Assembly (NCBI GenBank): GCA_938082375.1
Contig: CALKCJ010000036.1
Location: forward strand, 1-33,502
Direction of reading: 5' to 3'
Source: an uncultured Thermomicrobiaceae bacterium
GTDB lineage: Bacteria; Chloroflexota; Chloroflexia; Thermomicrobiales; Thermomicrobiaceae
Length of the DNA: 33,502 nt
Shown here in pieces: positions 1 to 28,089 of this stretch (the first letter of the stretch is position 1; every line of letters starts with the position of its first letter). Below the pieces are notes generated by a model. It saw nothing but the letters and a program-made list of their open reading frames with translations, made no database searches and had not been told where the DNA came from. The translations under genes and the position numbers were made by a program.

Positions 1-207
1 AACGACCGGTGTGCTCGTTGCCGGTTCGAGGAAGAGGTCAGCGATGGTCCCCGGGGATGCGGAAAGGAGCAGCTCGGCGAGCTGCTGGATCAGCCAGCGC
101 TTGGCCTCGTCACGACTGGCAAGCCACGTCGATGGGCTGCAGGCGAGCCGGAGCGTTTCCTGGACGAGCTCGGCCCCCTTCGACCCCGCGTCTGGCAGCG
201 CGAGCTC
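1..207 (-). pseudogene. Continuation of the helical-repeat protein reading frame past an in-frame TGA (runs off left edge)
   Basis: On the minus strand the frame of the 208-2397 gene continues directly after its TGA stop for 69 further codons without another stop. Of the first 40 codons after the TGA, 34 end in G or C, as in the real genes nearby. The translation looks like folded helical protein (for example LVQETLRLACSP and RWLIQQLAELLLS). No ATG, GTG or TTG occurs in frame, so it cannot be a separate gene starting here by normal initiation. The simplest reading is that the TGA interrupts a longer protein. No domain is recognised. It could also be chance high-GC open frame, but the codon bias argues against that. 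Confidence 0.5.
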
Positions 208-2397
208 TCAGAAGGTGCGGACGACGAGCTCGGCATAGTCTCTGGCCTTCTTCGGGGATACTCTTTGAACTTCCCGGAGGGTACGGACAAGGTAGGAGGC
301 AGCGTCGTGGTCTCGCCCAGCGCGCGCCGCCAGGAGAGCGAGCAGGTAGAGGGCAGCGCCGCCCTGCCTCTCCAGATCGCTTTGCACATGCTCTGCAAGA
401 CCATGCCAGGTTTCATCGGGGATTGGTGGTGCGCTCCTGAGTAGCTTACAGGTATCGAACAGGGCGGGAGCAGAACTCAAGAGGGCCTCTGTCTGAGTGA
501 GCCGCCGAACAGTGCCGGCCAAAGTCGCCATCGTCTCCGCGGGTGACCGTGCGGCTAGGCCGAGCACAAGTTCCAGGGTCGCGAGCGCGCTCTCGCTGGT
601 CACAAATGACCCATGCTGCGGCTCGGTCAACGCCGCAAGGAACGGAGTGAATTGCTCTTCCGGAACATCGCTGAGCCTGTCGCGCAGCACCGGCAGCGCC
701 TGCTCAACGACCGTTCTGACCTGTGGCTCGTGGAGGTGGGCTGTAACTGTGCCGACGAGAGGCCCGAGAACGGTAGGTTCGCGACACTTGGCTGACGAGC
801 GCAGGAGCAGGGCGAAGGCACGCGCTCGTTGCTTCGGCTGGAGCGGAGGCAGGGTCTGCTCCTGGAGCAGGGTGAGCCATGAAGCCGGATACCGGAGCAC
901 CGCGTCTTCCGGTGTCCGCTCGAGCAGGCCCCACAGTGTCGTCGGCTGGCCCGATAGTGCCTCGAGGATCTCGTATATCGGCTCACGACCCAGCCGCACG
1001 CGGTGTGCTGCGAGGTCAGTCAGGAGACCCAGGGCGGTCGCAGGCTCTCGCCCGCTCAGCCGCCCCAGGATCTGCGCCAGGTCTTGCCGATCCTTCAGCG
1101 TCGTCGAGTCGAGAGCGGGGAGCAGGGCTTCGGCGTAGCGCTCTTCCAGCCTGGTCTCGGCCCATGGGGATAGGGGCTCGAGGAACGGGCGGATCGCGCG
1201 CAGCTCGTCGAGTCCGAGGGGTGGTTGGAACGAGTCGAACCTCTGGTCGAGTTCATCGGCGAGCTGGCACACCCGGTCTTCACGTTCAGGATGCAGCCAG
1301 GTAGGGAGCAGCGCTTCGGAACCGGTGCTCCACCAGGTGCGCCGGTACCGGCTGATCCACAGCTGCTCATCAACCAGGCGGCCGGGCGTCCAGTTCGGGA
1401 GCCCGACTCGTTCGTACCAGACTCGTGCCTGGCGACCGTCATCGAGCAGCCGTGCCAGGCGGAGGGCAGCGCCGGCAGCCCGCTCCTGGTCGGCCGTCGC
1501 CTGATACAGCGAGTAAAGACGTTCCAACGCTTCCCGGGTGCGCGCTGGCTCAGACTCGTGCTCGGCAAGCCACTCGAGCTCGCGCGCTGCCGCTTCTCGT
1601 TCCCCGAGCCGCTCCCAGAGTTCGCCCAATCGCCACCGTGCCTGGAGGAGATGCTGGAACATCGTCGTGCCGGGTTCCGCCGAACCCAGTTTCGTCTTGA
1701 GCTGGTCGAGCTCGGCGACGGCCTCCTCCAACTTTCCTTGCCGCTCGCGCCAGTCCGCACGTACGAAACGGAGAAGCTGGACGAGGGACAGTGCGGGCGC
1801 ACGCTGCAGGAATAGGCTAGTCTCCTCGATCAGGAGCCGCTCAACGGTCGTATCCCTATCCTCATTGGTCAGCTTGACAGCACGCTCGGCGAGCTGGACG
1901 ACCTCGTCGGGAGGGAGATCAAACCACCCCCGGCAGGTGGCTAGCAGGCGCGACGCGATCGCCGGACGGTGCTCCGGCGTGTCGCTGAGGAGCCGGTTGG
2001 TTCGCCCGAGCAGGTGGTCGCCCAGCCGCTTGCCCTCGGCTATCTCACGCTCGACCAGGACAACGAGCTGATTCAGCTCGTCCAGCGTGGGCCAGCGCTC
2101 AGGCTCGTGCTCGAAGCGGTCGAGCAGCTCTCCGAGCTCCTGGCGGATGCGAGCGATGGTACGGCGGCGCTGCTCGATGTCGGTGGCAAAGGAGAGCTCA
2201 GGGACACAGCGGCTGCAACTGAACCAACTCTCGCCGACGACCTCGTAGGTCTTCAGATAGCCGAGCACGACGCCGCGCAGGCAGGGGAGCCGGCCAGAGC
2301 GCGGCTTCCAGTTCCCGCTATCCGCACGCTCGACGCCGATGTACTCGGTCAAGAAACGCTCGTAGGCTTCCCAGTCGTGCTTTTGCCGCCGCTCCAT
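208..2397 (-). CDS. Large helical-repeat (TPR-like) protein of unknown function, probably fused to the upstream helicase
   Basis: A 729-residue frame from ATG 2397. I do not recognise a named family. The sequence is rich in paired amphipathic helices of TPR type (for example LWERLGEREAAARELEWLAE near the middle) and has a CSRC pair near residue 60. No enzyme motif was seen, so a scaffold or regulatory role is a guess. Coding character extends upstream of the ATG in the same frame to about 2532, giving WRELEHPRGWEV and LSEAFAHPEKLERYVDAF, inside the 3' end of the helicase gene. That upstream part has no start codon and begins just after a TAG. Adding one base to the C5 run at 2529-2533 would join this frame to the helicase. 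Its own TGA at 208-210 also looks like an interruption. The ATG start is therefore nominal. Confidence 0.6.
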   Translation of the reverse strand: MERRQKHDWEAYERFLTEYIGVERADSGNWKPRSGRLPCLRGVVLGYLKTYEVVGESWFSCSRCVPELSFATDIEQRRRTIARIRQELGELLDRFEHEPERWPTLDELNQLVVLVEREIAEGKRLGDHLLGRTNRLLSDTPEHRPAIASRLLATCRGWFDLPPDEVVQLAERAVKLTNEDRDTTVERLLIEETSLFLQRAPALSLVQLLRFVRADWRERQGKLEEAVAELDQLKTKLGSAEPGTTMFQHLLQARWRLGELWERLGEREAAARELEWLAEHESEPARTREALERLYSLYQATADQERAAGAALRLARLLDDGRQARVWYERVGLPNWTPGRLVDEQLWISRYRRTWWSTGSEALLPTWLHPEREDRVCQLADELDQRFDSFQPPLGLDELRAIRPFLEPLSPWAETRLEERYAEALLPALDSTTLKDRQDLAQILGRLSGREPATALGLLTDLAAHRVRLGREPIYEILEALSGQPTTLWGLLERTPEDAVLRYPASWLTLLQEQTLPPLQPKQRARAFALLLRSSAKCREPTVLGPLVGTVTAHLHEPQVRTVVEQALPVLRDRLSDVPEEQFTPFLAALTEPQHGSFVTSESALATLELVLGLAARSPAETMATLAGTVRRLTQTEALLSSAPALFDTCKLLRSAPPIPDETWHGLAEHVQSDLERQGGAALYLLALLAARAGRDHDAASYLVRTLREVQRVSPKKARDYAELVVRTF

Positions 2398-4910
2398 CTG
2401 CTCGACGAAGGCATCGACATAGCGCTCGAGCTTCTCAGGGTGAGCGAACGCCTCACTGAGCCTGACTTCCCAGCCACGGGGGTGTTCGAGTTCTCTCCAG
2501 GAAAACCAATCGTCGAGGATCGGTCTTTCCCCCTATGCCCCATCGCCCGTCGCTCGCCTTCGGTCTTCGAGGCGCGCTTGTAGGCTCCGGCATAGTCGCG
2601 CCAGACCTGCAGAGTTGTCTTTCCGGCCGCCGGGCCGCGGAGCGGCGGCCGAATCGTCTTGAAGTCGAGCAACGTGCCTCGCCAGCGTCGCTGGCGATTT
2701 GCCCCGTTCTCCCGCTGTCCCTCGGCCTGACGGAGATCAGTGAGGAGCGCACTGGCCTCATGGACGGGTAGCGCGAGGAGATCCGCCAGCGCGCGGACGT
2801 CTCCCCCTGTCACCAGCTCGTAGAAGCTGGATCGGAGATCGCGAAGTTGGTGCTCTTTGTCACGAAGGAGACAGCCGAAGTACAGGTTCGAGGCGAAGAT
2901 CCGATCCACGTTCTGGCGTTCTAGGGACACGTCGTCGAGTTCGGCTCCGCAGTCGTGCACCTCGTCGACCAGCGAGACGAAGTGTCCGTCGATGTACGGC
3001 CGGTAGGACTGCAATGCTTGGAGGATGCGGTCGATGTACCGGCACTGTTCGCCGTACTGATGGCCGTGGTCGAGGATGGCAGCGTGCTGTGGCGATTCGT
3101 TCCGGTAGCGGCGTCGTTCTGGGAAGGTAGGCCACGCGAACCCGCGCTCCGGATGCTCGAGGAACACGATCGCTTCGTCAGCGGTGAAGTAGAGCGTGCC
3201 GGCCCGCGTTGACTCTCGTGTGCGGAGGAACGCCACCATTGCCTCGACGTCCTCGCGGCGGACGTATTTCTCCTGCAAGAAGAACTCCTGGATCTCGTAA
3301 TCCGATTTGCCGGTTCCTGGAGAGTCGGGGCTGAAGTAGACGACGACGTCAGAGAAGTCGCCGTCGCGCCCGGCGCGCCCTGCCTCCTGCCAGTATGCTT
3401 CCATGTTGGCCGGTGGCGTGCGGTGGAGGATAAGCCGGATGTTCGGCTTGTCCACGCCCATGCCGAATCCCTTGGTCGCCACCGTGACCGCCCGCTCGCC
3501 GCGGATGAAGGCCTCTTGCTCGGCCCGGCGCGAGCGGTCGCTCATATTGCCGAGTTCCTTCGGCGGGGCGGTCGCGGCACGTTGACCGTGCTCGTCTTCG
3601 GTCGCTGCATCTGCTGCAGGGTCGTCGTCCATCTTGCCATGGTAGATGGAGACCTTGGAGCCGAGTTCAGTCTCCAGCCAGGCCGCGAACTCGGTCACCC
3701 GGGGACTCGCCCTGTCAGGCTTGGCATCATCCTGTCCTGTCCAGGGCATGAAGACGATGGCTGCCCCCGGCTTGGCCGGATCGGCGCGGTTCCGCGCAAG
3801 GAGAGTGTGGAGCTGGTTCGCAATCTCCTCGGCCTTGCGCTCAGTCGAATCGAGGACCTGGACGATCAGGTTGAGCTCCGGCCGGTTCGAGGTGTCGACC
3901 AGTACGTCGCCTCCCTGCTCGATCGGGCGCTGGTCGAGCTGCAGCTCGCGAGAGAGATCCTCCCGCACCGGTGGGCTGGCGGTGGCGGTGAGCGCGATGA
4001 CGTTCGGCTCCAGGCCATGTTGGCGCAGGCGTTGAACAATGTTCAAGTACACTAGCTGGAAGTCGTGCCCCCACTGGCTTACGCAGTGGGCTTCGTCCAT
4101 CGCCAGGTAACGGAAGCCGCCAGGGACTTTCTGGTGCGCGCGCTTGAGGCTCTCGATCACCCAGTCGCGCTGGAGTTGCTCTGGGGTGACGTAAACGAGC
4201 TTGAAGCATCCCTGCTCCAGCAGCCGAAGCCGGCGGTCCCGCTCGCGCATCGGCACCTCGCCGTTGAGGTAGGTGCAGAGGAAGTCCAACCCGTACCGCT
4301 CGCGGATCCGCTGCTCGAACTGGTCTTGCATCAACGCCTTGAGTGGCGAGACCACGACGGTGAAACCGGGCAGCAGCATCGCCGGCAGGATGAAGCATTC
4401 GCTCTTGCCGGAGCCGGTGGCGGCGATGCCGAGCACTGAGCGGCCGGTCAGAGCCCGTTGCAAGATGAGGTGCTGGAAGGGGCGGAGAGCGGGGAAGCCG
4501 AAGAGGCGGTAGGCGATGTCGTCGAGCGCATCCCGCACGTCGTCGTTGTAGACAGGCAGGAAGCCGGCAGGTTCCGCTCGGGTGGTCTCTTGCACCTGAA
4601 CGGTCGTCTGATCGCCGTTCGGCCTCAGGATCCATTGAGCGCTTTCACTTTTCGCGAGGGCCTGTGCGATCGCCCGCACGATGCGCACCTCGGCGCCGTG
4701 CGGCAGGTGTGGCAGGACGAACCCTGGCTCGCGCACGAAGGCGAGGTTGGAGATGCCGGCATAGGCCGGGCAGCGTTTGAGATATTCGTGTTCGTGCGAG
4801 CCGATGCTGGCGTCCCCCAAGCTGCGGCTTGCGAGCGGATCACGATTGGGGTCTGGTGCGATCGGGGTTCGGCCGCGGTAGCGGCCGATGCACCGGAAAG
4901 TGAGCGTCAT
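2349..4910 (-). CDS. RecQ-type DEAH-box ATP-dependent DNA helicase with N-terminal extension
   Basis: An 853-residue frame from ATG 4910. It carries RecQ-family helicase motifs: Walker A ATGSGKSE at about 164-171, motif II DEAHCVSQWGHDF at 272-284, motif III TAT at 308-310, ATKGFGMGVDKP at 478-489 and motif VI QEAGRAGRDG at 508-517. RecQ enzymes unwind DNA 3'-5' using ATP; activity here is inferred. About 140 residues precede the helicase core, and no RQC zinc site or HRDC domain is evident after it, so it is not housekeeping RecQ. The last 60 or so residues (after GERRAMGHRG) lose protein character because the neighbour's frame is coding there. Upstream, the same frame remains codon-biased back to a TAG at 4986-4988, so the true N terminus may be longer than ATG 4910. 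It resembles accessory or defence-type RecQ helicases (DpdF is one RecQ-like example) more than a repair enzyme. Confidence 0.8.
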   Translation of the reverse strand: MTLTFRCIGRYRGRTPIAPDPNRDPLASRSLGDASIGSHEHEYLKRCPAYAGISNLAFVREPGFVLPHLPHGAEVRIVRAIAQALAKSESAQWILRPNGDQTTVQVQETTRAEPAGFLPVYNDDVRDALDDIAYRLFGFPALRPFQHLILQRALTGRSVLGIAATGSGKSECFILPAMLLPGFTVVVSPLKALMQDQFEQRIRERYGLDFLCTYLNGEVPMRERDRRLRLLEQGCFKLVYVTPEQLQRDWVIESLKRAHQKVPGGFRYLAMDEAHCVSQWGHDFQLVYLNIVQRLRQHGLEPNVIALTATASPPVREDLSRELQLDQRPIEQGGDVLVDTSNRPELNLIVQVLDSTERKAEEIANQLHTLLARNRADPAKPGAAIVFMPWTGQDDAKPDRASPRVTEFAAWLETELGSKVSIYHGKMDDDPAADAATEDEHGQRAATAPPKELGNMSDRSRRAEQEAFIRGERAVTVATKGFGMGVDKPNIRLILHRTPPANMEAYWQEAGRAGRDGDFSDVVVYFSPDSPGTGKSDYEIQEFFLQEKYVRREDVEAMVAFLRTRESTRAGTLYFTADEAIVFLEHPERGFAWPTFPERRRYRNESPQHAAILDHGHQYGEQCRYIDRILQALQSYRPYIDGHFVSLVDEVHDCGAELDDVSLERQNVDRIFASNLYFGCLLRDKEHQLRDLRSSFYELVTGGDVRALADLLALPVHEASALLTDLRQAEGQRENGANRQRRWRGTLLDFKTIRPPLRGPAAGKTTLQVWRDYAGAYKRASKTEGERRAMGHRGKDRSSTIGFPGENSNTPVAGKSGSVRRSLTLRSSSAMSMPSSSRWSGGKSTTGKPTSVS

Positions 4911-5220
4911 CTCGGCTCCGTGCTTCAGCTCGACAGTGGGTAGCTGTTTCCGAGAGACAGGAGTCGTTGCGCGCTCCAGGACGACCTACGTCCAGGAGAG
5001 CAGCTGGTTCTCGAACTCGTCTAGCGAGCGCTACGACGAGTTCGAGCGTGGGGCAGCGTTCGACGAAGGCGTGGTACAGCGCGGTCTGGTGCACACCCTC
5101 GCGCCGGCTCGGCCAGCAGGACTCACAACACAGCGGTAGCTCTGCACCGAACTCCTGCCCGCAGGGAATCACCGTGCGAAACTCGGGGTGAGCGCGCAGG
5201 AACCGGCGCCGCCAGCGCAT
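4840..5220 (-). pseudogene. Cys-containing small ORF coupled to the methyltransferase; probable N-terminal piece of the helicase protein
   Basis: ATG 5220 overlaps the stop of the upstream methyltransferase as TGATG, a classic translational-coupling junction. The first 62 or so codons are strongly G/C-ending and protein-like, with a possible metal site (PCGQE followed by LCCESCW). The frame stays open to 4840, but after about 5033 it loses codon bias: 6 of 20 codons end in G/C, against 13 of 14 in the frame one base later, which reads SLDEFENQLLSWT then TAG and then runs into the helicase frame. This suggests one indel near 5015-5033 and a TAG at 4986-4988 separating this segment from the helicase. 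A real stand-alone small protein ending in scrambled sequence is the alternative. Confidence 0.5.
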
Positions 5221-6114
5221 CAACCCGCGTCGTCCTTCGTACCCGATTCGAGCAGCAGCACGAGCGTGCCCGGCTCGGCTGCAGCCAGCACCGTGCTCAG
5301 GTTGTCCCCGCTCCCAGCGTCCTGGAGCTCCCGTAGCACATAGCTGACGACGATGACGTTGGCCCAGCGCGCGAGTTCCTGCCCACGGGCGAGCTGCTCA
5401 GCGCGCGTGAGGTCGATCTGCTCCCACCTGGCCGTCGCTGCGGCGCTGCGGATCTGTTCGGCCCAGGCACGGCCCGGCCACTCCTGGTCGTCCCGCCCGC
5501 TCTCGTGAAGCACCCGCTGACGTGTCTCGATCCAGCGCTGAACCTCCCGGCCAAAGGCGACGGACACGCGGCGCGCGTAGTCGAGCGCTGGCTGGCTGCG
5601 GTCGATCCCGACCAGCTCGACCGAGTCGAGCGGGAAGGGCTGACTCCACAGGCGGCACCAGCTCTCCCAGGCGAGGAGAAAGTCGAGCACCGCAAGTGCG
5701 GTCGTGCCCGGGCCGACACCGATGTCCAGGACGCGCAGCGCGCGCTGGCCATCTTGTGCAGGCGGGGGGGAAGGCGCCCACCCGGAGCAGGTCGGTCAGG
5801 ACGGCTTGCAGCTTGGGTGCATTGCTGGTGGTGTAGTAGGCCAGATAGCTGCGGAGGAACGTGCCCTCGTAGGTGTGCCGGTCGCTGAACGGCTTATTCG
5901 TGGCCCGGAACCGTTCCCAGGCCTGCGCCATCCGGTCGAGCTGCTGCTGGGGGCGCGTGCGCTCGAGGATGGCGCGGATCGATTCGGCCCGCCGCCGGTC
6001 GTCGAGTGTCCGGCCGAAGAGCACCCGGAGTTGCGTCGCCTCGACCAGCGGTGAGAGGCGAAATCGGCGGCCCGGGGCAAGCAGCGTCTCCAGCGTGTCG
6101 GCGACCTGCTGCAC
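5220..6114 (-). pseudogene. SAM-dependent methyltransferase, Rsm22-like, frameshifted in a G7 run
   Basis: GTG 6114 is chosen because a strong purine-rich Shine-Dalgarno (GGGGAGGGG on the minus strand) lies just upstream; the product then begins MQQVADTLETLL. The N-terminal half (including YLAYYTTSNAPKLQAV) is in one frame and the C-terminal half in another. Read across the run of seven G at 5764-5770 as if it were six, the two halves join as a single 298-residue protein with a clear methyltransferase motif I, RVLDIGVGPGTTALA, followed by a second acidic strand VELVGIDRS and VIVVSYVLREL. The architecture is reminiscent of the Rsm22 family of ribosome-associated methyltransferases, but the substrate is unknown. 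The stop overlaps the next start. The frameshift could be a real lesion, a sequence error in the homopolymer, or slippage-based phase variation. Confidence 0.7.
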
Positions 6115-6149
6115 AGCGATCCCCTCCCCGTACCAGCCTGTCGAGTGTT

Positions 6150-7328
6150 CTACGCCTCCCCTTTCTCGCGACACGGTGATCGGTAGTACCGGTGGTTCGG
6201 GTTCGCGTAGCAGTAGACGCAGGCGTAGCCGCACTCCTGCCAGGCGTAGTCGCCGATGTCAGCGTGGCGGTGGCAGCCGCAGGCCTCACGCCGGGCCATC
6301 TGTACATCAGTCGCCGGGGGCGGCGCGCCCCGGCGGTACTCCCAGCGAGGATCGAGCAGCCGGGCGTCGATGCAGGAGGCGGCGCAGAAGCCAGGCTGGC
6401 CCGCCAGCGCCGTTTCGGTACAGGCCTCGAGGCGGACGCCGTAGCGCTGGCCGATCTCGACCATGGCGCTGGTAATGGCGGCCAGCTCCTCAGGGTGTGG
6501 CTGGCGCAGGCGCCGGTGGGGAAAGTGGCGTCGCATGCGGAGCTGGAACTTGCGATAGTGGTCGGCGACGCTGGTGATGCAGCGGCGGATGCCGAGCGCG
6601 CCGAGATGCCGGCACATGTCTTCGAAGAAGTCCGGATCCCAATTGCTGAGTGGTTGGCCGTCCTCTTCCCAGAAGACGAGCGGGTCATAGCGCCAGGCGA
6701 GCATCTTCGGGCCGAACCGCTCAGCCAACGCGCGGAACTGGCGCAGTGCCTCGTCGAGTGGTGGCACGTCCGGCTCCAGCCAGCGGAGATCGTCGCGACG
6801 CGGGTTGACGGTGAAGTGGAAGAACTGTCGCTCGTACTGTGCGAAGCGGTCGGCGTGGCGTAGGTAGACGGCATAGTTCTTCGACCACCAGACGATGGCG
6901 ATCACATGCTGAGGTCGCAGCGAGACGTGGGTGAAGAGGCGAGTGAGCCGCCCGTCGACCTCCTCCGGTAGGTCGGAGCGGGCCAGTACCCGGTCGAGAG
7001 CGGCCCGGCTCGGTGGGCCAGCGGCTCGCCCTGGCACTGCCTGATCGTCGTACGGCGCGATCGCCTGGAGGATCGGCTGGCTGAAGAGCGGGTTCGGCAC
7101 GTCCACCCAGCCGATCTCTATCCGCCGCAACAGCCAGGGGAGGTAAAAGGCGGGGATATCGGTGCGCTTGCTGGCCGAGAGGATGCGCGGCCGCTCGTTC
7201 AGGCCGAAGCCGGTACGCCCGTGGGGACAGCAAGGAGTGGTATCTCGATGGGAATCGCCCTCGTCGACGGGTATCAGCTCCGAGATCGGTAATCCGAGCT
7301 GTTCTGCGGACTCGCGTTCGCTCTCCAT
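6150..7328 (-). CDS. DUF1848 family protein (radical-SAM-like)
   Basis: Recognised from the N-terminal motif ILSASKRTDIPAFYLPWLL and the C-terminal cysteine cluster with CGCHR, then CGYACVYCYANPN, both typical of DUF1848. The C-x3-C-x2-C spacing suggests a 4Fe-4S cluster and relation to radical-SAM/spore-photoproduct-lyase-like proteins; no biochemical function is established that I can name. ATG 7328 gives a product of 392 residues; a TTG seven codons upstream is possible. It is the first gene of the minus-strand run leading through the methyltransferase to the helicase. It ends 36 bases before the methyltransferase GTG, and the intervening bases contain that gene's ribosome-binding site, so co-transcription is likely. 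Confidence 0.85.
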   Translation of the reverse strand: MESERESAEQLGLPISELIPVDEGDSHRDTTPCCPHGRTGFGLNERPRILSASKRTDIPAFYLPWLLRRIEIGWVDVPNPLFSQPILQAIAPYDDQAVPGRAAGPPSRAALDRVLARSDLPEEVDGRLTRLFTHVSLRPQHVIAIVWWSKNYAVYLRHADRFAQYERQFFHFTVNPRRDDLRWLEPDVPPLDEALRQFRALAERFGPKMLAWRYDPLVFWEEDGQPLSNWDPDFFEDMCRHLGALGIRRCITSVADHYRKFQLRMRRHFPHRRLRQPHPEELAAITSAMVEIGQRYGVRLEACTETALAGQPGFCAASCIDARLLDPRWEYRRGAPPPATDVQMARREACGCHRHADIGDYAWQECGYACVYCYANPNHRYYRSPCREKGEA

Positions 7329-7788
7329 AACGATTGCCTGAGCCAGCAACGTCAGGGCGTACGATGAGCGGTTGGAGCCGCATCATGCCCTGCTCGACCT
7401 TGCCTTTACCTCTCGCCGCTTATCCACGAGAAGGCAATGCTGTGAGCGGCACTATACCGAATCATCGTCATGAGCACGAGAGGAAACGGGAACGCTGTCG
7501 CTCGGTAGCGCTCCAGTGCGAACCGGGCATGCGCCCCTCGCATCAGTCACACCACGACAGCCGGATGCGCTCCTCCCGCCTCCCCGCCAGCGATCGCGCC
7601 GCGCTTGTTCCAGAAGCAGCCATCAGCAGGCAGCCGTCCCCGCCCGGGCGAACAGGAGGTGGCCGTTCGCAGTGGCTTGGCCTGCACCCGTACCTTGTCG
7701 TCACGACCAGCGCAGTCGCGGCCGGTCGAACTCTCGACGCGCACCTTGCCTCCCCGGCCGGTGGCGTTGGCGTTTCAGCCGGAGTGCC
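7329..7788. other. Intergenic region with no recognised gene
   Basis: About 460 bases between the DUF1848 gene and the Lrp/AsnC-like gene, both on the minus strand. Several frames are open, as expected in high-GC DNA, but none has convincing codon bias, a ribosome-binding site or a recognisable product. It must hold the promoter for the DUF1848 cluster, but I could not identify a good -35/-10 pair. Confidence 0.5.
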
Positions 7789-14520: not shown

Positions 14521-14556
14521 AGCCGGATCCCTGCTTACTGTAGCAGGGATCCGGCT
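14521..14556 (-). terminator. Hairpin terminator after the ABC transporter operon
   Basis: Two perfectly complementary 14-base arms (AGCCGGATCCCTGC at 14521-14534 and its complement at 14543-14556) enclose an 8-base loop. It lies about 40 bases past the stop of the binding-protein gene. On the minus strand it is followed by CTTTCC, a weak U tract. It could also stop plus-strand transcripts from the ThDP gene. Confidence 0.7.
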
Positions 14557-20818: not shown

Positions 20819-21769
20819 CTATGGTTCGAAGCCGAAGTCTCGCACCGAGTAAGCCTCAACGTCCTGTCGGATCTTGCGCACCAGCCCGGTCAGTACTTGC
20901 CCCGGCCCCACCTCAAGAAACGTCGTCGCGCCGCGGTTGGCCATCTCGCGTACCGTTTCAGTCCACTGCACTGGTGAGATGACCTGCTGGGCGAGCTCGT
21001 GCCGGATCTCCTCGACCGTCGCAAGGATCTTGCCGGTGATGTTGGCCACGATCGGGATCTCCGGCTCGCGCAGCGGGATGCGACCCAGCAGCTCGCTCAG
21101 CGCCTGAGCTACCCGTTCCATCAGCGGCGAGTGCGAGGCAATGGTCACGCCGAGGCGGACAATGCGTCGGGCGCCCCGCTCGTGCGCCAGCTCCATCGCC
21201 CGTCGTAGTGCCGCCTCCTCGCCGGAGATCACGAGCTGCCCCGGGCAGTTGTCGTTCGCCACCACAACTAGCCCCAGTTCACTCGCCTCCCGGCAGATCT
21301 GCTCGAGCGCTGCCCGATCCAGCCCGATGACGGCCGCCATCCCGCCGGGACGCTCTCGCCCGCTCTCCTTCATGAGCCGGCCACGCTCACGTACCAGCGC
21401 CAGCGCGTCCTCGAAGCTGAGTACGCCGGCTGCGACCAGCGCGGTGAACTCTCCCAGGCTGTGCCCGGCCACGAAGCTCGGCTGGATAGTCTGCCCCAGC
21501 TCGCGCAGGCGCTCCCGCAGGGCCTCGAGATAGGCAAGGCTGACCGTCAGGATCGCTGGCTGGGCGTTGAGCGTGTCCGCCAGTTCATCGGCCGGGCCTT
21601 TGAAGCAGAGCTGGGACAACGGGAAGCGCAAGAGCTCGTCGGCCTGGCTGAAAATCCTGCGAGCGGCCTCCGAGATTTCGTGGATTCGCTTCCCCATACC
21701 CACGTGCTGGCTTCCCTGGCCAGGGAAGATGAGAGCCAATCGCTTGCCGACGAGCGCCGAAAGTTCCAT
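20819..21769 (-). CDS. fabD: Malonyl-CoA:ACP transacylase
   Basis: A 316-residue enzyme that loads malonyl groups onto acyl carrier protein. It begins with the expected LALIFPGQGSQHVGMG, contains the nucleophile motif GHSLGEFTAL, the conserved arginine region (RGRLMKESG), a catalytic histidine in IASHSPLM, and ends with FLEVGPGQVLTGLVRKI. It is the first of a fabD-fabF pair on the minus strand and is preceded by about 145 bases of non-coding DNA after the transporter gene. The ATG at 21769 gives the usual N terminus. Confidence 0.95.
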   Translation of the reverse strand: MELSALVGKRLALIFPGQGSQHVGMGKRIHEISEAARRIFSQADELLRFPLSQLCFKGPADELADTLNAQPAILTVSLAYLEALRERLRELGQTIQPSFVAGHSLGEFTALVAAGVLSFEDALALVRERGRLMKESGRERPGGMAAVIGLDRAALEQICREASELGLVVVANDNCPGQLVISGEEAALRRAMELAHERGARRIVRLGVTIASHSPLMERVAQALSELLGRIPLREPEIPIVANITGKILATVEEIRHELAQQVISPVQWTETVREMANRGATTFLEVGPGQVLTGLVRKIRQDVEAYSVRDFGFEP

Positions 21770-21914
21770 AGGCGGTCGCTTCCCCTTCCCCAGGTATTCA
21801 CCATGCGCATTGTCGCCGTATCTTACCAGTTGACAGCCGGTTGTGCGTCGATCGACACGCGCTCGAACAACGAGCCGTTTCGGTCACGCAAGCCGCGCAG
21901 CGCGCGTCGTGCCG

Positions 21915-22658
21915 CTACTGTTCCAGCCGGAAGGGGGAGAAACTGACGCCGTAGTCGTAGGTGTCGATCCCCTCGACCCGCTTGAGGGCATTCACGACTG
22001 CGTAGGTCAGCGGGGTGGCGAGCGCCTCGTAGGCCGACTTGACCAGCCAGGCTGTGACGATGGTGCGCAGGAGGTCGCCGCCAGCGACGGTGCCGATAAA
22101 GGCGACAGTCACGAAGACCAGCGAGTCGAGCCCCTGTCCCACCAGGGTGGAGCCGATGGTACGCGTCCAGAGCCAGCGGCCTCGGGTCAGCAATTTCATC
22201 CGCGAGAGGACGGCAGCGTTGGCGAATTCGCCGACCAGGTAGGCCAGGAACGAAGCCGTCAGCAAGCGCGGCGTATAGCCCAGGATCCGCTCGTAGGCTG
22301 CCTGCGCGTCCCAGAAGGTGGCCGGTGGCAGGTACTGGGTGACGGCGATGGCGATGACGGCCAGCAGGTTACAGGCGAACCCGAGCCAGATGACTACCCG
22401 CGCCCGGCGGTAGCCGTAGACCTCGGTCAGGACGTCACCGAAGATGTAGCTCAAGGGGAAGACCGTCACCGTGCCGGCCGGGACGACCAGCCCACCGATG
22501 TCGACGATCTTGACGGCCACGATGTTGGACGTGATGAGTGCGGTGACAAAAATGGCGGTAATCACGACGAACCAGGGGCTATAACCGGGAGCCGTGTTAC
22601 GGCTGGGCATCGTCGCGCGCGCGTCGGGATGCCTCGACTCGAGCGGTTTCTGCGCCAC
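21915..22658 (-). CDS. Queuosine precursor transporter family (YhhQ/VUT) membrane protein
   Basis: A 247-residue protein with about six membrane segments and the family's marks: ITSNIVAVKIVDIGG, FPLSYIFGDVLTEVYGYRRAR and STLVGQGLDSLVFV. Characterised members import queuosine precursors such as preQ0/preQ1 for tRNA modification; substrate here is by family only. GTG 22658 follows GGAGGGA, and the gene starts 15 bases after the ftsH stop, so the two are probably co-transcribed. Confidence 0.88.
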   Translation of the reverse strand: MAQKPLESRHPDARATMPSRNTAPGYSPWFVVITAIFVTALITSNIVAVKIVDIGGLVVPAGTVTVFPLSYIFGDVLTEVYGYRRARVVIWLGFACNLLAVIAIAVTQYLPPATFWDAQAAYERILGYTPRLLTASFLAYLVGEFANAAVLSRMKLLTRGRWLWTRTIGSTLVGQGLDSLVFVTVAFIGTVAGGDLLRTIVTAWLVKSAYEALATPLTYAVVNALKRVEGIDTYDYGVSFSPFRLEQ

Positions 22659-22673
22659 AGGCTCCCTCCAGCA

Positions 22674-24665
<1,992 letters not shown>

Positions 24666-24738
24666 GTACGATCCTCAATGTACTAAGCCATGGCCACGCT
24701 CGCCGGTCGAGCGCGCACATGGACGGTGAACTACCGTG

Positions 24739-24768
24739 ATTGTACCCAGCGGGTGCGAGCGATGTCGG
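24739..24768 (-). promoter_or_regulatory. Predicted promoter for ftsH
   Basis: On the minus strand CCGACA (24768-24763) and TACAAT (24744-24739) are separated by 18 bases, about 75 bases upstream of the ftsH ATG. Confidence 0.45.
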
Positions 24769-24791
24769 CCAGTACCATAGTCCGAACCGCA

Positions 24792-24820
24792 CGAGGCAGC
24801 CGAGTCGATCGGCTGCCTCG
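24792..24820. repeat. Hairpin in the ftsH-M24 intergenic region
   Basis: Perfect 12-base arms CGAGGCAGCCGA (24792-24803) and TCGGCTGCCTCG (24809-24820) around a 5-base loop. No T tract follows on either strand, so it is not a standard terminator. A very short frame (24835-24891, 18 codons, MRLVCSVGSREQSALDRS) follows directly with a purine-rich GAGGAGGAG in front, but spacing to its ATG is too tight to be sure. The rest of 24666-25090 shows nothing recognisable. Confidence 0.5.
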
Positions 24821-25090
24821 CACGTGAGGAGGAGATGAGACTGGTGTGCTCGGTTGGGTCGAGAGAGCAATCTGCTCTTGACCGTTCTTAGTATGCCTCA
24901 ACTGGCTCAGCGTGTCCAGGGCCAGCGGCGGTACCGTCGTATGAATTTCTCGTGACCCTCAGCTCCCAGTGGGCGTGGTTTGTCCCCGGACACGGCGTGA
25001 GCGGCATCGGTCTCCCTTGGCAAACAGTGCCTGACCGGGCAAGATGGACAGTACCAGGTCAGCGGGACGACCCGGGATGAGGAGGGCACT

Positions 25091-26227
25091 GTGGTGTTGG
25101 GGGAAGCCTTTCATTGTCAGGTCGTGTCCGCACTCGCCGCCCGCCTGAGCGAGTTGAACCAGCAGGCCCTGCTCCTGTTCGATCCGGCCAATGTCCGCTA
25201 TGTGACTGGCGTGAGCCTCGCCCCGTCGCCGCTGCCGGCGGCCGCCTGCATCTGGGCCGATGGTCGCGTGGCCCTGTTGCTACCAGCGTCCGAACTCGAG
25301 CTGGCAGCGCAGAGCTGGGTGCGTGACGTGCGCCACTACGACGACGCCATCGACGATATCGAACCCTTCCGCTGGATAGCCCGCGAGGCTGGCGGGCCAC
25401 TGCTGATCGATACGCTTCCGGCCGCGGCCTGGCAGGTGATGGCAGCCGAGGTGGAAGAGCTCGCGCTTCAAGATCTCGCGGGGGAGCTTCGCCGCGTGAA
25501 GACCCCGGCAGAGCTGGCCTTGATCGAGCGCGCGGCCGAATACGCCGATATCGCGCTCGAGCGGACATTCGCCCGGCTAGCGAGCGGGAGCACCGAGCTC
25601 GAGATCCTGGCCGATGTGGTGCATTCGGTGACCATGCTGATGCGCGACGAGCTGGGTGAGTACTTCGAGCTGGTGGAGCCAGCGCTGACCGGTGTCATCC
25701 AGAGCGGGACGCGCGCCGCGCTGCCGTCGGCCCCGGCCAGTACCCGGCGGCTCAGCCGCGGCGACGTGGTGGTCGCCGAGTTCACGGCCTGCGTCGCCGG
25801 CTATCATGCCCAGGCTGGCTGCACCTTCTTCGTCGGCGACCCGCTACGCGATGCGGTGCGCTGGGTCGAGACGGCGGTGCAGGCGCAAGCCGCGACACTC
25901 GAAGCGGCCGTCAGCGGCGCGACGGCCGCGACAGTCGACCGGGCAGCGCGCCGGGTCATCGAGCGGGCTGGCCTGGCCAAAGCCGTCCAAGGGGTCACCG
26001 GGCACGGGATCGGGCTGGCGCGCTGGGAAGCACCGTGGCTGCGGGCGAGCGACCAGACACGGTTGGCCGAAGGCATGGTACTGGTGCTTCGCCCCGGTGT
26101 GAGCATCACCGGGCGCACTGGCGCGCGTCACGCGCAGACGGTGGTCATCGAGGCTGAGAGATCGCGCGTCCTCAACCCCCGGCAGGAGCGCTGGGCCAGG
26201 CTCGAGGATCGTCTCAAGGAGTTCTAG
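25091..26227 (+). CDS. M24 'pita-bread' fold protein, creatinase/aminopeptidase-P-like, metal site lost
   Basis: A 378-residue two-domain protein: a creatinase-N-like domain (about 10-135, with LLLFDPANVRYVTGV) and a C-terminal M24 domain. In M24 peptidases five residues (D, D, H, E, E) bind two metals. Aligning by the conserved spacing, position 1 is Glu230 (VVAEFTA), position 2 is Gln241 (YHAQAGCTF), the His is kept (His305 in GHGIGL), Glu313 is kept (RWEAPWL), and the last is Ala348 (RHAQTVV). So it is probably not a di-metal peptidase. Creatinase uses this fold without metals, so a non-peptidase hydrolase or binding role is possible. GTG 25091 follows GAGGAGGG. Confidence 0.85.
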   Translation: MVLGEAFHCQVVSALAARLSELNQQALLLFDPANVRYVTGVSLAPSPLPAAACIWADGRVALLLPASELELAAQSWVRDVRHYDDAIDDIEPFRWIAREAGGPLLIDTLPAAAWQVMAAEVEELALQDLAGELRRVKTPAELALIERAAEYADIALERTFARLASGSTELEILADVVHSVTMLMRDELGEYFELVEPALTGVIQSGTRAALPSAPASTRRLSRGDVVVAEFTACVAGYHAQAGCTFFVGDPLRDAVRWVETAVQAQAATLEAAVSGATAATVDRAARRVIERAGLAKAVQGVTGHGIGLARWEAPWLRASDQTRLAEGMVLVLRPGVSITGRTGARHAQTVVIEAERSRVLNPRQERWARLEDRLKEF

Positions 26228-26237
26228 CCGGGCGAGC

Positions 26238-26645
26238 TCACGGGCCGGTCTGCCGAACGAACTCGATAAGCGCTGCTAGATCGAAGTAGCAGGCCTGGCG
26301 CACGATCAGCCCTTCGCGCACGGTGTAGAAGGCGGCCATCGGCTGGGCGATCCGCTGGCCGTTGTGGGTGGCGACCGCCACCAGCTCCACCGCGACGTGC
26401 TCGCCGTCGACCACCACCGTCTTGACGGCGCTCCACATGTCGGGCCACTGCGCCTCGCTGGCTTCGAGCAGAGCGCGCAGCTGTTGTTTGCCCGTGATTT
26501 CCTGTCCGTCGAGCTGCGGGCTGGGCACCCAGACCACGATATCGTCTGCGCAGTAGCGGAGCGCGTCCTCGATGTCGCCGCGGTTCAGTGCGGCGATCGA
26601 GGCGCGGACGACCTCGGACGGCGTACGGGCTCGCTCCTCGACCAC
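26238..26645 (-). CDS. NTF2-like / SnoaL-type small protein
   Basis: About 135 residues with the cone-shaped NTF2/ketosteroid-isomerase pattern: an N-terminal helix SEVVRASIAALNRGD, then ALRYCADDIVVWVP and beta strands ending FYTVREGLIVRQACYFD. Such proteins range from isomerases to binding domains; the reaction is unknown. GTG 26645 is preferred because the fold starts immediately after it, although an upstream in-frame ATG at 26741 would add 32 residues of poor character. It ends 10 bases from the stop of the convergent M24 gene. Confidence 0.7.
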   Translation of the reverse strand: MVEERARTPSEVVRASIAALNRGDIEDALRYCADDIVVWVPSPQLDGQEITGKQQLRALLEASEAQWPDMWSAVKTVVVDGEHVAVELVAVATHNGQRIAQPMAAFYTVREGLIVRQACYFDLAALIEFVRQTGP

Positions 26646-26749
26646 GGATCCGATACCGCCTCCGTACCACTCACCATATTGCGGCGTCCTATCATACCCC
26701 CTGTTGGGCTGGCCCGGGGTACGAGAGGTGATCCAAGCCAAGGCGAGAG

Positions 26750-27445
26750 CTACGCCCCGCTGACCGTCACGACGAGGCGATCTTGCTCGAGGGTGACCGC
26801 CTCAACGGTGGCTCCCTCAGCAGCCAGGCGTCGTTGGAGCTCCTCCGTGAGCCGTGCGCGTAGCTCGTCAGCGTCGAGCAACAGCCCCAGCGGCCCCTCG
26901 ACGCGGGGGTCTTCGAGCTCGATCGTGCCGTTGTGCGCGACCGGTCGGGCGCTGAAGGCTCCGCTCAGCCCGTACGCTGAGAAGCGCAACGTGATGCCAG
27001 CCGGGTCGATCTCCGCCCGCACGTTGCGCGTGGGGCCGAAGGACTGTGAGTTCTCGGCGATCTCCCGGTTCAGCTCCTCCTCGGTGAGCACCACCTGGCC
27101 AGTGGCGGTGCCGGGAGTCACCTCGGCCGGTTTGGGCGGAGGAGACAGCGGCGGAGCAGGCGAACTCGAACTCGCTGGCGTGCTGGTCGTCGGCCGCTGC
27201 GCTTGCGAGCTCAAAAATGCCGCCAGTGTGACCAGGATGAGTGCGCTCGACACGGTGGTCATCAGGCAGCCCAGCGCCCGGCCGCCGACTCTGCCTCTGC
27301 GCTCCCACCGCGTGCCGGGCTGTGGGCGACGACCGGCCAACAGCGGTCTCTGGGGTCGGCTGGCCTGGACGTGCGTGAAGGAGGCACCGCAGGCCACGCA
27401 CCGGCGTCCGGGTGGCTGACGCGTGCCGCAATAGGGGCAGTACAT
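26750..27445 (-). CDS. Zinc-ribbon membrane protein with extracytoplasmic domain
   Basis: About 231 residues starting MYCPYCGTRQPPGRRCVACG, a four-cysteine zinc ribbon (CPYCG and CVACG). A basic stretch, a membrane segment (LMTTVSSALILVTLAAFLS), and a Ser/Pro/Thr-rich linker follow. The C-terminal 120 residues are beta-rich with LTEEELNREIAE and end LEQDRLVVTVSGA; this resembles lipid-binding DUF2993/LmeA-like domains, but that is a weak guess. The upstream codons (to 27523) lack protein character, so ATG 27445 is preferred. Orientation suggests cytoplasmic ribbon and external C terminus. Confidence 0.7.
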   Translation of the reverse strand: MYCPYCGTRQPPGRRCVACGASFTHVQASRPQRPLLAGRRPQPGTRWERRGRVGGRALGCLMTTVSSALILVTLAAFLSSQAQRPTTSTPASSSSPAPPLSPPPKPAEVTPGTATGQVVLTEEELNREIAENSQSFGPTRNVRAEIDPAGITLRFSAYGLSGAFSARPVAHNGTIELEDPRVEGPLGLLLDADELRARLTEELQRRLAAEGATVEAVTLEQDRLVVTVSGA

Positions 27446-27573
27446 CTCGCCGGCTTTCTCTCTCGGTAGCGCTCGAGCGCGAGCACCGGGCGTGGTTCTA
27501 TCCACGGCCCGGTGCTCAAGCATACCTGACCGGGGAGGTGACGGCCGTGAGCCCGCTCAACAGCGCTGCCCCC

Positions 27574-28089
27574 CTAGCGGACGATGACTTTCCCCTCCAT
27601 ATTCGGGTGGAGCAGGCACCAGTACGCGTACTCGCCAGGCGTGTCGAAGGTCATCTGGTAGCGCTGACCTGCCTCCAGGAAGCCAGAATCCCAGCGCCGC
27701 TCCTTGTCGGTGACGGTGTGGGTCGTCGGGCTCGTGTTGATCCAGACGACGGTCGTCCCCGGCGAAATCGTGATCTCGGCAGGCCGAAAGCCGAAGTTGA
27801 ACACCTCCACTTTCACCTGCTGCCCGCCAGCCGGGGTCGCGCCTGCTGCCGCAGCCTGTTCCGGCGTCGCGGTCGCCGTCGCTGGTGCCGCTCCGTAGCT
27901 CCCACTGGCAGGCTGGTCGTAGCTGTACGAGCGGTAGCCCGGTGTGGGCGCTGCGGCAGGCGGTGTCACACCCATCGTCGAGCTACCAGACCTCGGGCCA
28001 TAGCCGCCACCCAGCCTACCGCAGGCGAGCGCAGGCAGCGCCAGCGCGAGCATCACCGCGATGACCACGAGTGTCCGAGTGTGAGCCAT
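27574..28089 (-). CDS. Cupredoxin (plastocyanin/azurin-like) lipoprotein
   Basis: A 171-residue precursor. The signal peptide ends ALPALACG, a lipobox, so it is probably attached to the membrane by Lgt. A low-complexity Pro/Ala/Tyr linker (about 25-85) precedes a cupredoxin domain with type-1 copper ligands visible as His in TTHTVTD and the Cys, His and Met of YWCLLHPNMEGKV. It should bind copper and carry electrons or buffer copper outside the cell. The gene lies 40 bases downstream of the CHRD gene on the same strand and is probably co-transcribed. Confidence 0.9.
   Translation of the reverse strand: MAHTRTLVVIAVMLALALPALACGRLGGGYGPRSGSSTMGVTPPAAAPTPGYRSYSYDQPASGSYGAAPATATATPEQAAAAGATPAGGQQVKVEVFNFGFRPAEITISPGTTVVWINTSPTTHTVTDKERRWDSGFLEAGQRYQMTFDTPGEYAYWCLLHPNMEGKVIVR

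Follow-up and report, generated by a model that had tools for sequence, protein, structure and literature searches.

The left 7.3 kb of the contig analysed here are occupied by a giant gene that is broken in several places and by its DUF1848 partner. We give even chances to the reading that this region is a two-gene surveillance or defence module that was recently inactivated, and the copy described here probably no longer makes the giant protein. The window comprises one whole contig of 33,502 bp, from a genome of 3.36 Mb in 61 contigs (99.97% complete), and thus the end of the contig truncates the giant gene as well.

Results

A single giant gene in several pieces

The ORF listing of the minus strand shows open frames at 2349-4910 and 208-2397, with shorter frames beginning at 5223 and 5690. 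When the long ORFs of relatives were compared by tblastn with the left 7.4 kb, each homologue crossed several of these window frames, in order, and the window pieces are collinear with single proteins at 39-47% identity. Since each intact homologue is encoded by one ORF of about 1,700-2,680 codons, the longest with 2,682 codons in Candidatus Chloroploca, the minus-strand pieces belong to one gene, as the initial annotation had proposed from the letters of the sequence.

Breaks were mapped by frameshift-aware alignment of the minus strand to the one-ORF proteins of G100 and of G005, the sister copy, and agree with a codon-usage Viterbi scan of the contig (Table 1). All stops and frame changes listed in the initial annotation are present: its frameshift near 5015-5033 corresponds to a frame change mapped between about 5060 and 5022, its TAG at 4986-4988 aligns with a Tyr that relatives conserve, and its frameshift at 2529-2533 falls within the interval mapped around the C5 run. 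However, that list was incomplete, as at least two more lesions lie upstream (5764-5770 and about 5221-5231), and the gene does not begin at ATG 5220 as had been assumed. The upstream methyltransferase (about 6174-5222), taken for a neighbour, is instead the N-terminal domain of the same polypeptide, encoded with it in one ORF in homologues; ATG 5220 is start-like only because the frame change creates a TGA overlapping it.

Table 1. Features of the giant gene and its partner at the left end of the window
Feature	Positions	Strand	Basis
DUF1848 (radical-SAM-like) partner gene, intact; alternative ATG 7328	6150..7349	-	PF08902, E 4.5e-61
Piece 1: N-terminal helical part, METTL17/Rsm22-like domain	5771..6174	-	alignment, codon scan
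Lesion: frame change in G7 run (plus strand)	5764..5770	.	alignment, codon scan
Piece 2: SAM-binding core, motif I LDIGVGPGT and acidic ESG motif	5222..5755	-	alignment, codon scan
Lesion: frame change, makes TGA overlapping ATG 5220	5220..5231 (about 5221-5231)	.	alignment
Piece 3: Cys cluster PCGQEFGAELPLCCESCWPSRRE, predicted METTL17/Rsm22-type ligands	5061..5220	-	alignment
Lesion: frame change beside perfect 12-bp inverted repeat	5022..5060	.	alignment
Lesion: in-frame TAG where relatives have a conserved Tyr codon (SW[SC]Y)	4986..4988	-	alignment
Piece 4: RecQ helicase core, preceded by the OB-like end of the Rsm22 domain with the fourth Cys (YLKRCP)	2553..4985	-	
DEAD domain	3966-4484	-	PF00270, E 1.1e-24
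Helicase_C domain	about 3360-3551	-	PF00271, E 3.9e-12
Lesion: frame change around C5 run 2529-2533	2522..2552	.	alignment, codon scan
Piece 5: RecQ-like Zn motif, then TPR-like helical solenoid	211..2521	-	alignment
RecQ-like Zn motif CLRGVVLGYLKTYEVVGESWFSCSRC, one Cys changed to Trp	2206-2283	-	alignment to homologues
Probable lesion: in-frame TGA, or natural end	208..210	-	codon scan
Same coding frame continuing to contig end	1..207	-	codon scan

Both ends of the gene are less sharply defined. Piece 1 may start at GTG 6174 or GTG 6114, with GTG 6234 also open; it aligns from 6105 with residues 47 onward of homologue L025, and the codon-scan frame covers 5770-6128. Piece 4 contains an 853-codon ORF from ATG 4910. 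The TGA at 208-210 had been counted as a break, and the same frame does run on to base 1; nevertheless it may be the true end, because this region is poorly conserved and homologues vary in length from about 1,700 to 2,682 codons. We consider an internal lesion likely here, though unproven. Alignments also indicated frame changes near 880-911 and 307, which we rejected, as the region is weakly conserved and the codon scan shows none. A search of the other contigs with the C-terminal part of G005 found no missing C-terminus, which shows little given fast divergence.

The inverted repeat in Table 1 has arms at 5010-5021 and 5035-5046 (CTCGAACTCGTC / GACGAGTTCGAG) separated by a 13-nt loop and lies exactly at one frameshift, a location that fits a templated (quasipalindrome) mutation. 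Two further perfect hairpins, of 15 bp (14521-14556) and 12 bp (24792-24820), fall in stretches that the codon scan reads as non-coding and are possible terminators.

Could the pieces be separate working proteins, produced from a split gene, by translational restart at TGATG 5220 or by programmed frameshifting? The overlap of ATG 5220 with a TGA resembles that of coupled genes, two ORFs in L051 overlap by four bases, and in L047 and L052 the split falls between methyltransferase and helicase. However, nine homologues consist of one ORF, and the breaks in the window interrupt the SAM core, the Cys-cluster domain and the linker between helicase and Zn motif. Furthermore, break positions differ in each broken copy; homologues are not consistently divided at the same places, as a conserved split or programmed frameshifting would lead one to expect. 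We regard separate proteins as very improbable.

Probable recent decay rather than sequencing error

The initial annotation had suspected that the gene is decaying, and the lesions are indeed confined to it: in the remaining 26 kb, the codon scan found no further frame change within a strand except at gene ends, although this part contains 45 further five-base runs. Genome-wide, all 56 strong ABC-ATPase domains (56/56) lie in one frame free of stops. Generally poor sequencing is therefore unlikely. A more local explanation is that the organism carries an intact giant gene and that errors of sequencing or assembly accumulated near the contig end, where the gene sits; two of the breaks, G7 and C5, are in homopolymers. 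That a single 6-kb gene carries five to six lesions, with none in the rest of the contig and none in the ABC-ATPase domains, speaks against this, as do the nature of the lesions, one being a nonsense change and another lying at a perfect inverted repeat, and the loss of a Cys from the RecQ-like Zn motif (C1331W).

The tree of the helicase part bears on both explanations. The branch of the window copy measures 0.25, against a median of 0.31 and 0.76 for its sister G005, so that the window copy seems to have been under constraint until recently, and this short branch suggests recent decay. Yet it shows no sign of long relaxed selection and would also suit local sequencing errors near the contig end. 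At positions invariant in all other members, the window copy has changed at 9 of 161, the highest count (others 0-8); as G005 has 8 such changes and L040 has 7, this excess is weak evidence. C1331W is among these changes. Altogether, we consider local error rather unlikely.

The N-terminal domain resembles METTL17/Rsm22 methyltransferases

Members of the METTL17/Rsm22 family (PF09243) carry a [4Fe-4S] cluster and act in mitoribosome assembly. An AlphaFold2 model of the N-terminal 510 residues of the L035 homologue (mean pLDDT 80.6) found METTL17/Rsm22 chains as the best Foldseek matches (E 1.9e-09). VIA-align, applied to residues 24-490 of this model, gave Z scores of 21.7-23.1 to 11 METTL17/Rsm22 chains in alignments of 311-347 residues, compared with Z 14.3 for the next-best family, and the SAM-methyltransferase fold is followed in the model by an OB-like C-terminal domain. 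By sequence, PF09243 is matched by 9 of 11 members (best E 5.6e-07); L035 scores 23.0 bits against a cut-off of 23 and the window piece falls below it. A sequence profile search of the PDB with the N-terminal domain gave no match.

The Cys cluster that had been noticed at the outset is present, but belongs to this methyltransferase family and not to the helicase. Judged by sequence, counterparts of the four ligand Cys (PCG..C..CW, then K.CP about 115 residues later) appear conserved in almost every member, and those of the window are spread over two different pieces. In METTL17, the four Cys were reported to bind a [4Fe-4S] cluster (PMC11046306), and in a trypanosome protein of the METTL17/Rsm22 family the corresponding Cys were reported as zinc ligands (PMC8171064); a loop provides three of the ligands and the C-terminal domain the fourth (PMC11046306, PMC8171064). 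Members linked to DUF1848 retain SAM motif I (D.GVG.GT), which is changed in the clade formed by L043, L048 and L053.

A RecQ-like motor followed by a helical solenoid

The RecQ-type helicase and helical-repeat region of the initial annotation are supported by a RecQ-family match and by a solenoid model. The motor is RecQ-like, with DEAD and Helicase_C domains carrying RecQ motifs; it scores 220.8 with recQ_fam (cut-off 219.8) and misses the cut-off of the recQ equivalog. In homologues, the motor is followed by a RecQ-like Zn motif, CLRxVxLGYLKT...NCxSCSRC. When three homologues of giant or near-complete length were searched, Pfam, which may miss remote versions, matched neither an RQC winged-helix nor an HRDC domain. 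Modelling of the last thousand residues of L036 gave an all-helical solenoid (pLDDT 75.7, pTM 0.49), for which fold searches returned only generic TPR/HEAT-like solenoids with low TM-scores.

The DUF1848 partner

Adjacent to the giant gene, the initial annotation had also placed a radical-SAM-like protein, and an intact DUF1848 gene does lie directly upstream. It has a full-length PF08902 match, is the only copy in the genome, shows no frame break relative to L039, and keeps all Cys that are invariant in an alignment of 10 homologues; the C-terminal CxxxCxxC and the upstream CGC and C..C motifs are present. In the sister G005, DUF1848 is present and broken by two frame changes.

Of the 14 homologues with enough flank, 10 have DUF1848 immediately upstream of the giant gene (L034-L037, L039, L041, L042, L046, L047 and L052), often overlapping it or within a few bases, and the other four (L040, L048, L051 and L053) have none nearby. 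Two of these four, L048 and L053, have also lost SAM motif I; this would agree with a shared function, albeit in small numbers. Within a side branch (L043, L044, L045, L048, L049, L050 and L053), the four Cys are kept and SAM motif I is altered where readable (L043, L048 and L053), while the two members with flanks (L048 and L053) have no DUF1848; this branch is perhaps a non-catalytic form.

Distribution, intact copies and neighbourhoods

Family members were found by an alignment-based scan of genome contigs; a single-sequence scan of the same kind of material recovered none. In a sample of 400 genomes of the phylum, nine carry the N-terminal domain. Nine one-ORF copies hold methyltransferase, helicase, Zn motif and solenoid: L034 and L035 from Candidatus Chloroploca (2,682 codons), L036 from Viridilinea (2,223), L037 from Anaerolineales (1,697), L038 and L040 from Desulfobacterales, L039 and L041 from Chloroflexota, and L042 from an Actinobacteria MAG. 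Among the 14 assessable copies, five have breaks (the window copy, G005, L047, L052 and L051), and as some lie in draft metagenome bins, single breaks there may be errors. In the G005 copy (L024:5200-7200), a TAG at 7193 interrupts the methyltransferase part, and a helicase-solenoid frame of 2,163 codons is open. In Thiocystis minor (L046:9992-13138), a stop closes the giant frame just past the helicase core and 136 bp from the end of the contig, which represents either a truncated copy or an assembly edge.

Members are scattered over Chloroflexota, Thermomicrobiota, Thermodesulfobacteriota, Pseudomonadota and Actinomycetota, together with a cyanobacterial MAG (bins may be misassigned), and the family tree mixes phyla. 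Other genomes of the same genera, searched with the profile or the helicase, lacked the family. Two queries against a plasmid collection retrieved no member, and in viral contigs only generic RecQ-like helicases matched, giving no direct link to phages.

Known defence genes occur in two of about eight informative neighbourhoods, most neighbours being ordinary. The L042 copy lies in a defence island: on L042:1345-16566, the giant gene and its DUF1848 are flanked on the same strand by a DrmMI/type IIG-like methylase and Mrr_N on one side and by a WYL-Mokosh-like helicase on the other. The L035 copy, an intact Chloroploca copy, is surrounded by a CHAT-NB-ARC-TPR protein of 1,869 residues, a JetD-like gene and an OLD/AriA-like ATPase (L035:3173-8782 and 20969-27963).

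Discussion

What might the intact copies do? Nucleic-acid surveillance or defence takes about half of our confidence, repair or modification, the main rival, receives clearly less, and the remainder is unaccounted for. In the proposed mechanism, the RecQ motor would load on phage, plasmid or damaged DNA where single strands are exposed and unwind it, the Fe-S/OB methyltransferase domain would hold the displaced strand and, with the radical-SAM partner, modify or mark it, and the solenoid may organise the complex or sense the trigger. Surveillance or defence against foreign nucleic acid would explain the patchy spread and frequent loss of the family. The initial annotation had suggested a nucleic-acid defence or modification system; this is plausible in that two loci hold defence genes, yet most neighbourhoods are ordinary. 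Against our preferred explanation also stand the plasmid and viral searches described above and the four informative homologues without a nearby DUF1848, two of which have a degenerate SAM motif.

The main rival holds that intact copies form a module for DNA repair or nucleic-acid modification rather than defence, in which radical-SAM and methyl-transfer chemistry would act on damaged or structured DNA or RNA after RecQ has opened the substrate. RecQ proteins are known to function in repair, the hosts include several phototrophs or thermophiles (Chloroploca, Roseiflexus, Thiocystis, Thermomicrobiaceae), housekeeping genes make up most neighbours, and a uracil-DNA-glycosylase-like gene precedes one copy (L048). 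However, a repair module sits poorly with the rarity and patchiness of the family, including its absence from those other genomes of the same genera, with its frequent inactivation, and with the two copies that have defence genes beside them, and we hold it to be on the unlikely side.

Within the surveillance or defence reading, we tentatively propose an undescribed two-gene system, in which a radical-SAM protein of the DUF1848 kind and a METTL17/Rsm22-like methyltransferase, carried on a RecQ-solenoid giant, would act together to modify or destroy nucleic acid that invades the cell; bacteria would thereby use a fold otherwise known from mitoribosome assembly. In the open-access literature, we found no paper on an Rsm22-helicase fusion, on DUF1848, or on a defence pair of RecQ and radical-SAM proteins. 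The family adds a bacterial giant that joins a predicted METTL17/Rsm22-type Fe-S methyltransferase to a RecQ motor and is paired with a radical-SAM gene, forming a helicase-centred two-gene module of which the window holds a probably decayed member. If defence is true, its chemistry would be one that known helicase systems do not use; if repair or modification is true, METTL17-type proteins would gain a relative with a link to DNA. Either reading can be tested with the intact copies, and the window illustrates the loss of genes of this kind.

Comparison with known systems

Among known systems, DpdF of the Dpd 7-deazaguanine DNA system shares with our family a RecQ-like helicase in a defence context, and PADLOC DpdF models match at E 2e-84, because DpdF is itself RecQ-like. 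However, the NCBIfam DpdF model gives only 117.6 bits against a cut-off of 550, far too low, and Dpd membership was therefore rejected; no other Dpd proteins were called among the flanking proteins scanned. RTasDUF1848 of PADLOC, in which DUF1848 stands beside defence reverse transcriptases, involves the same protein family (E 3.5e-32), but the partner here is the methyltransferase-RecQ giant, and no reverse transcriptase was called among the flanking proteins scanned. With METTL17/Rsm22, our proteins share the whole fold including the OB-like end, four Cys in the same order and, in the DUF1848-linked clade, SAM motif I. In contrast, three of the Cys are here spaced PCG..C..C without a CPH motif, the sequence match to PF09243 lies no higher than its cut-off, there is no evidence of a ribosomal role, and the domain is fused to a RecQ helicase and a solenoid. 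Finally, RecQ helicases (E. coli RecQ 1oyw, BLM and RECQ5) have in common with our family the motor domains, the SQWGHDF aromatic loop, GRAGRDG and the Zn Cys motif, whereas here HRDC has no Pfam match, a large insert occupies the region between the two motor domains, and the motor is embedded in a giant fusion on both sides.
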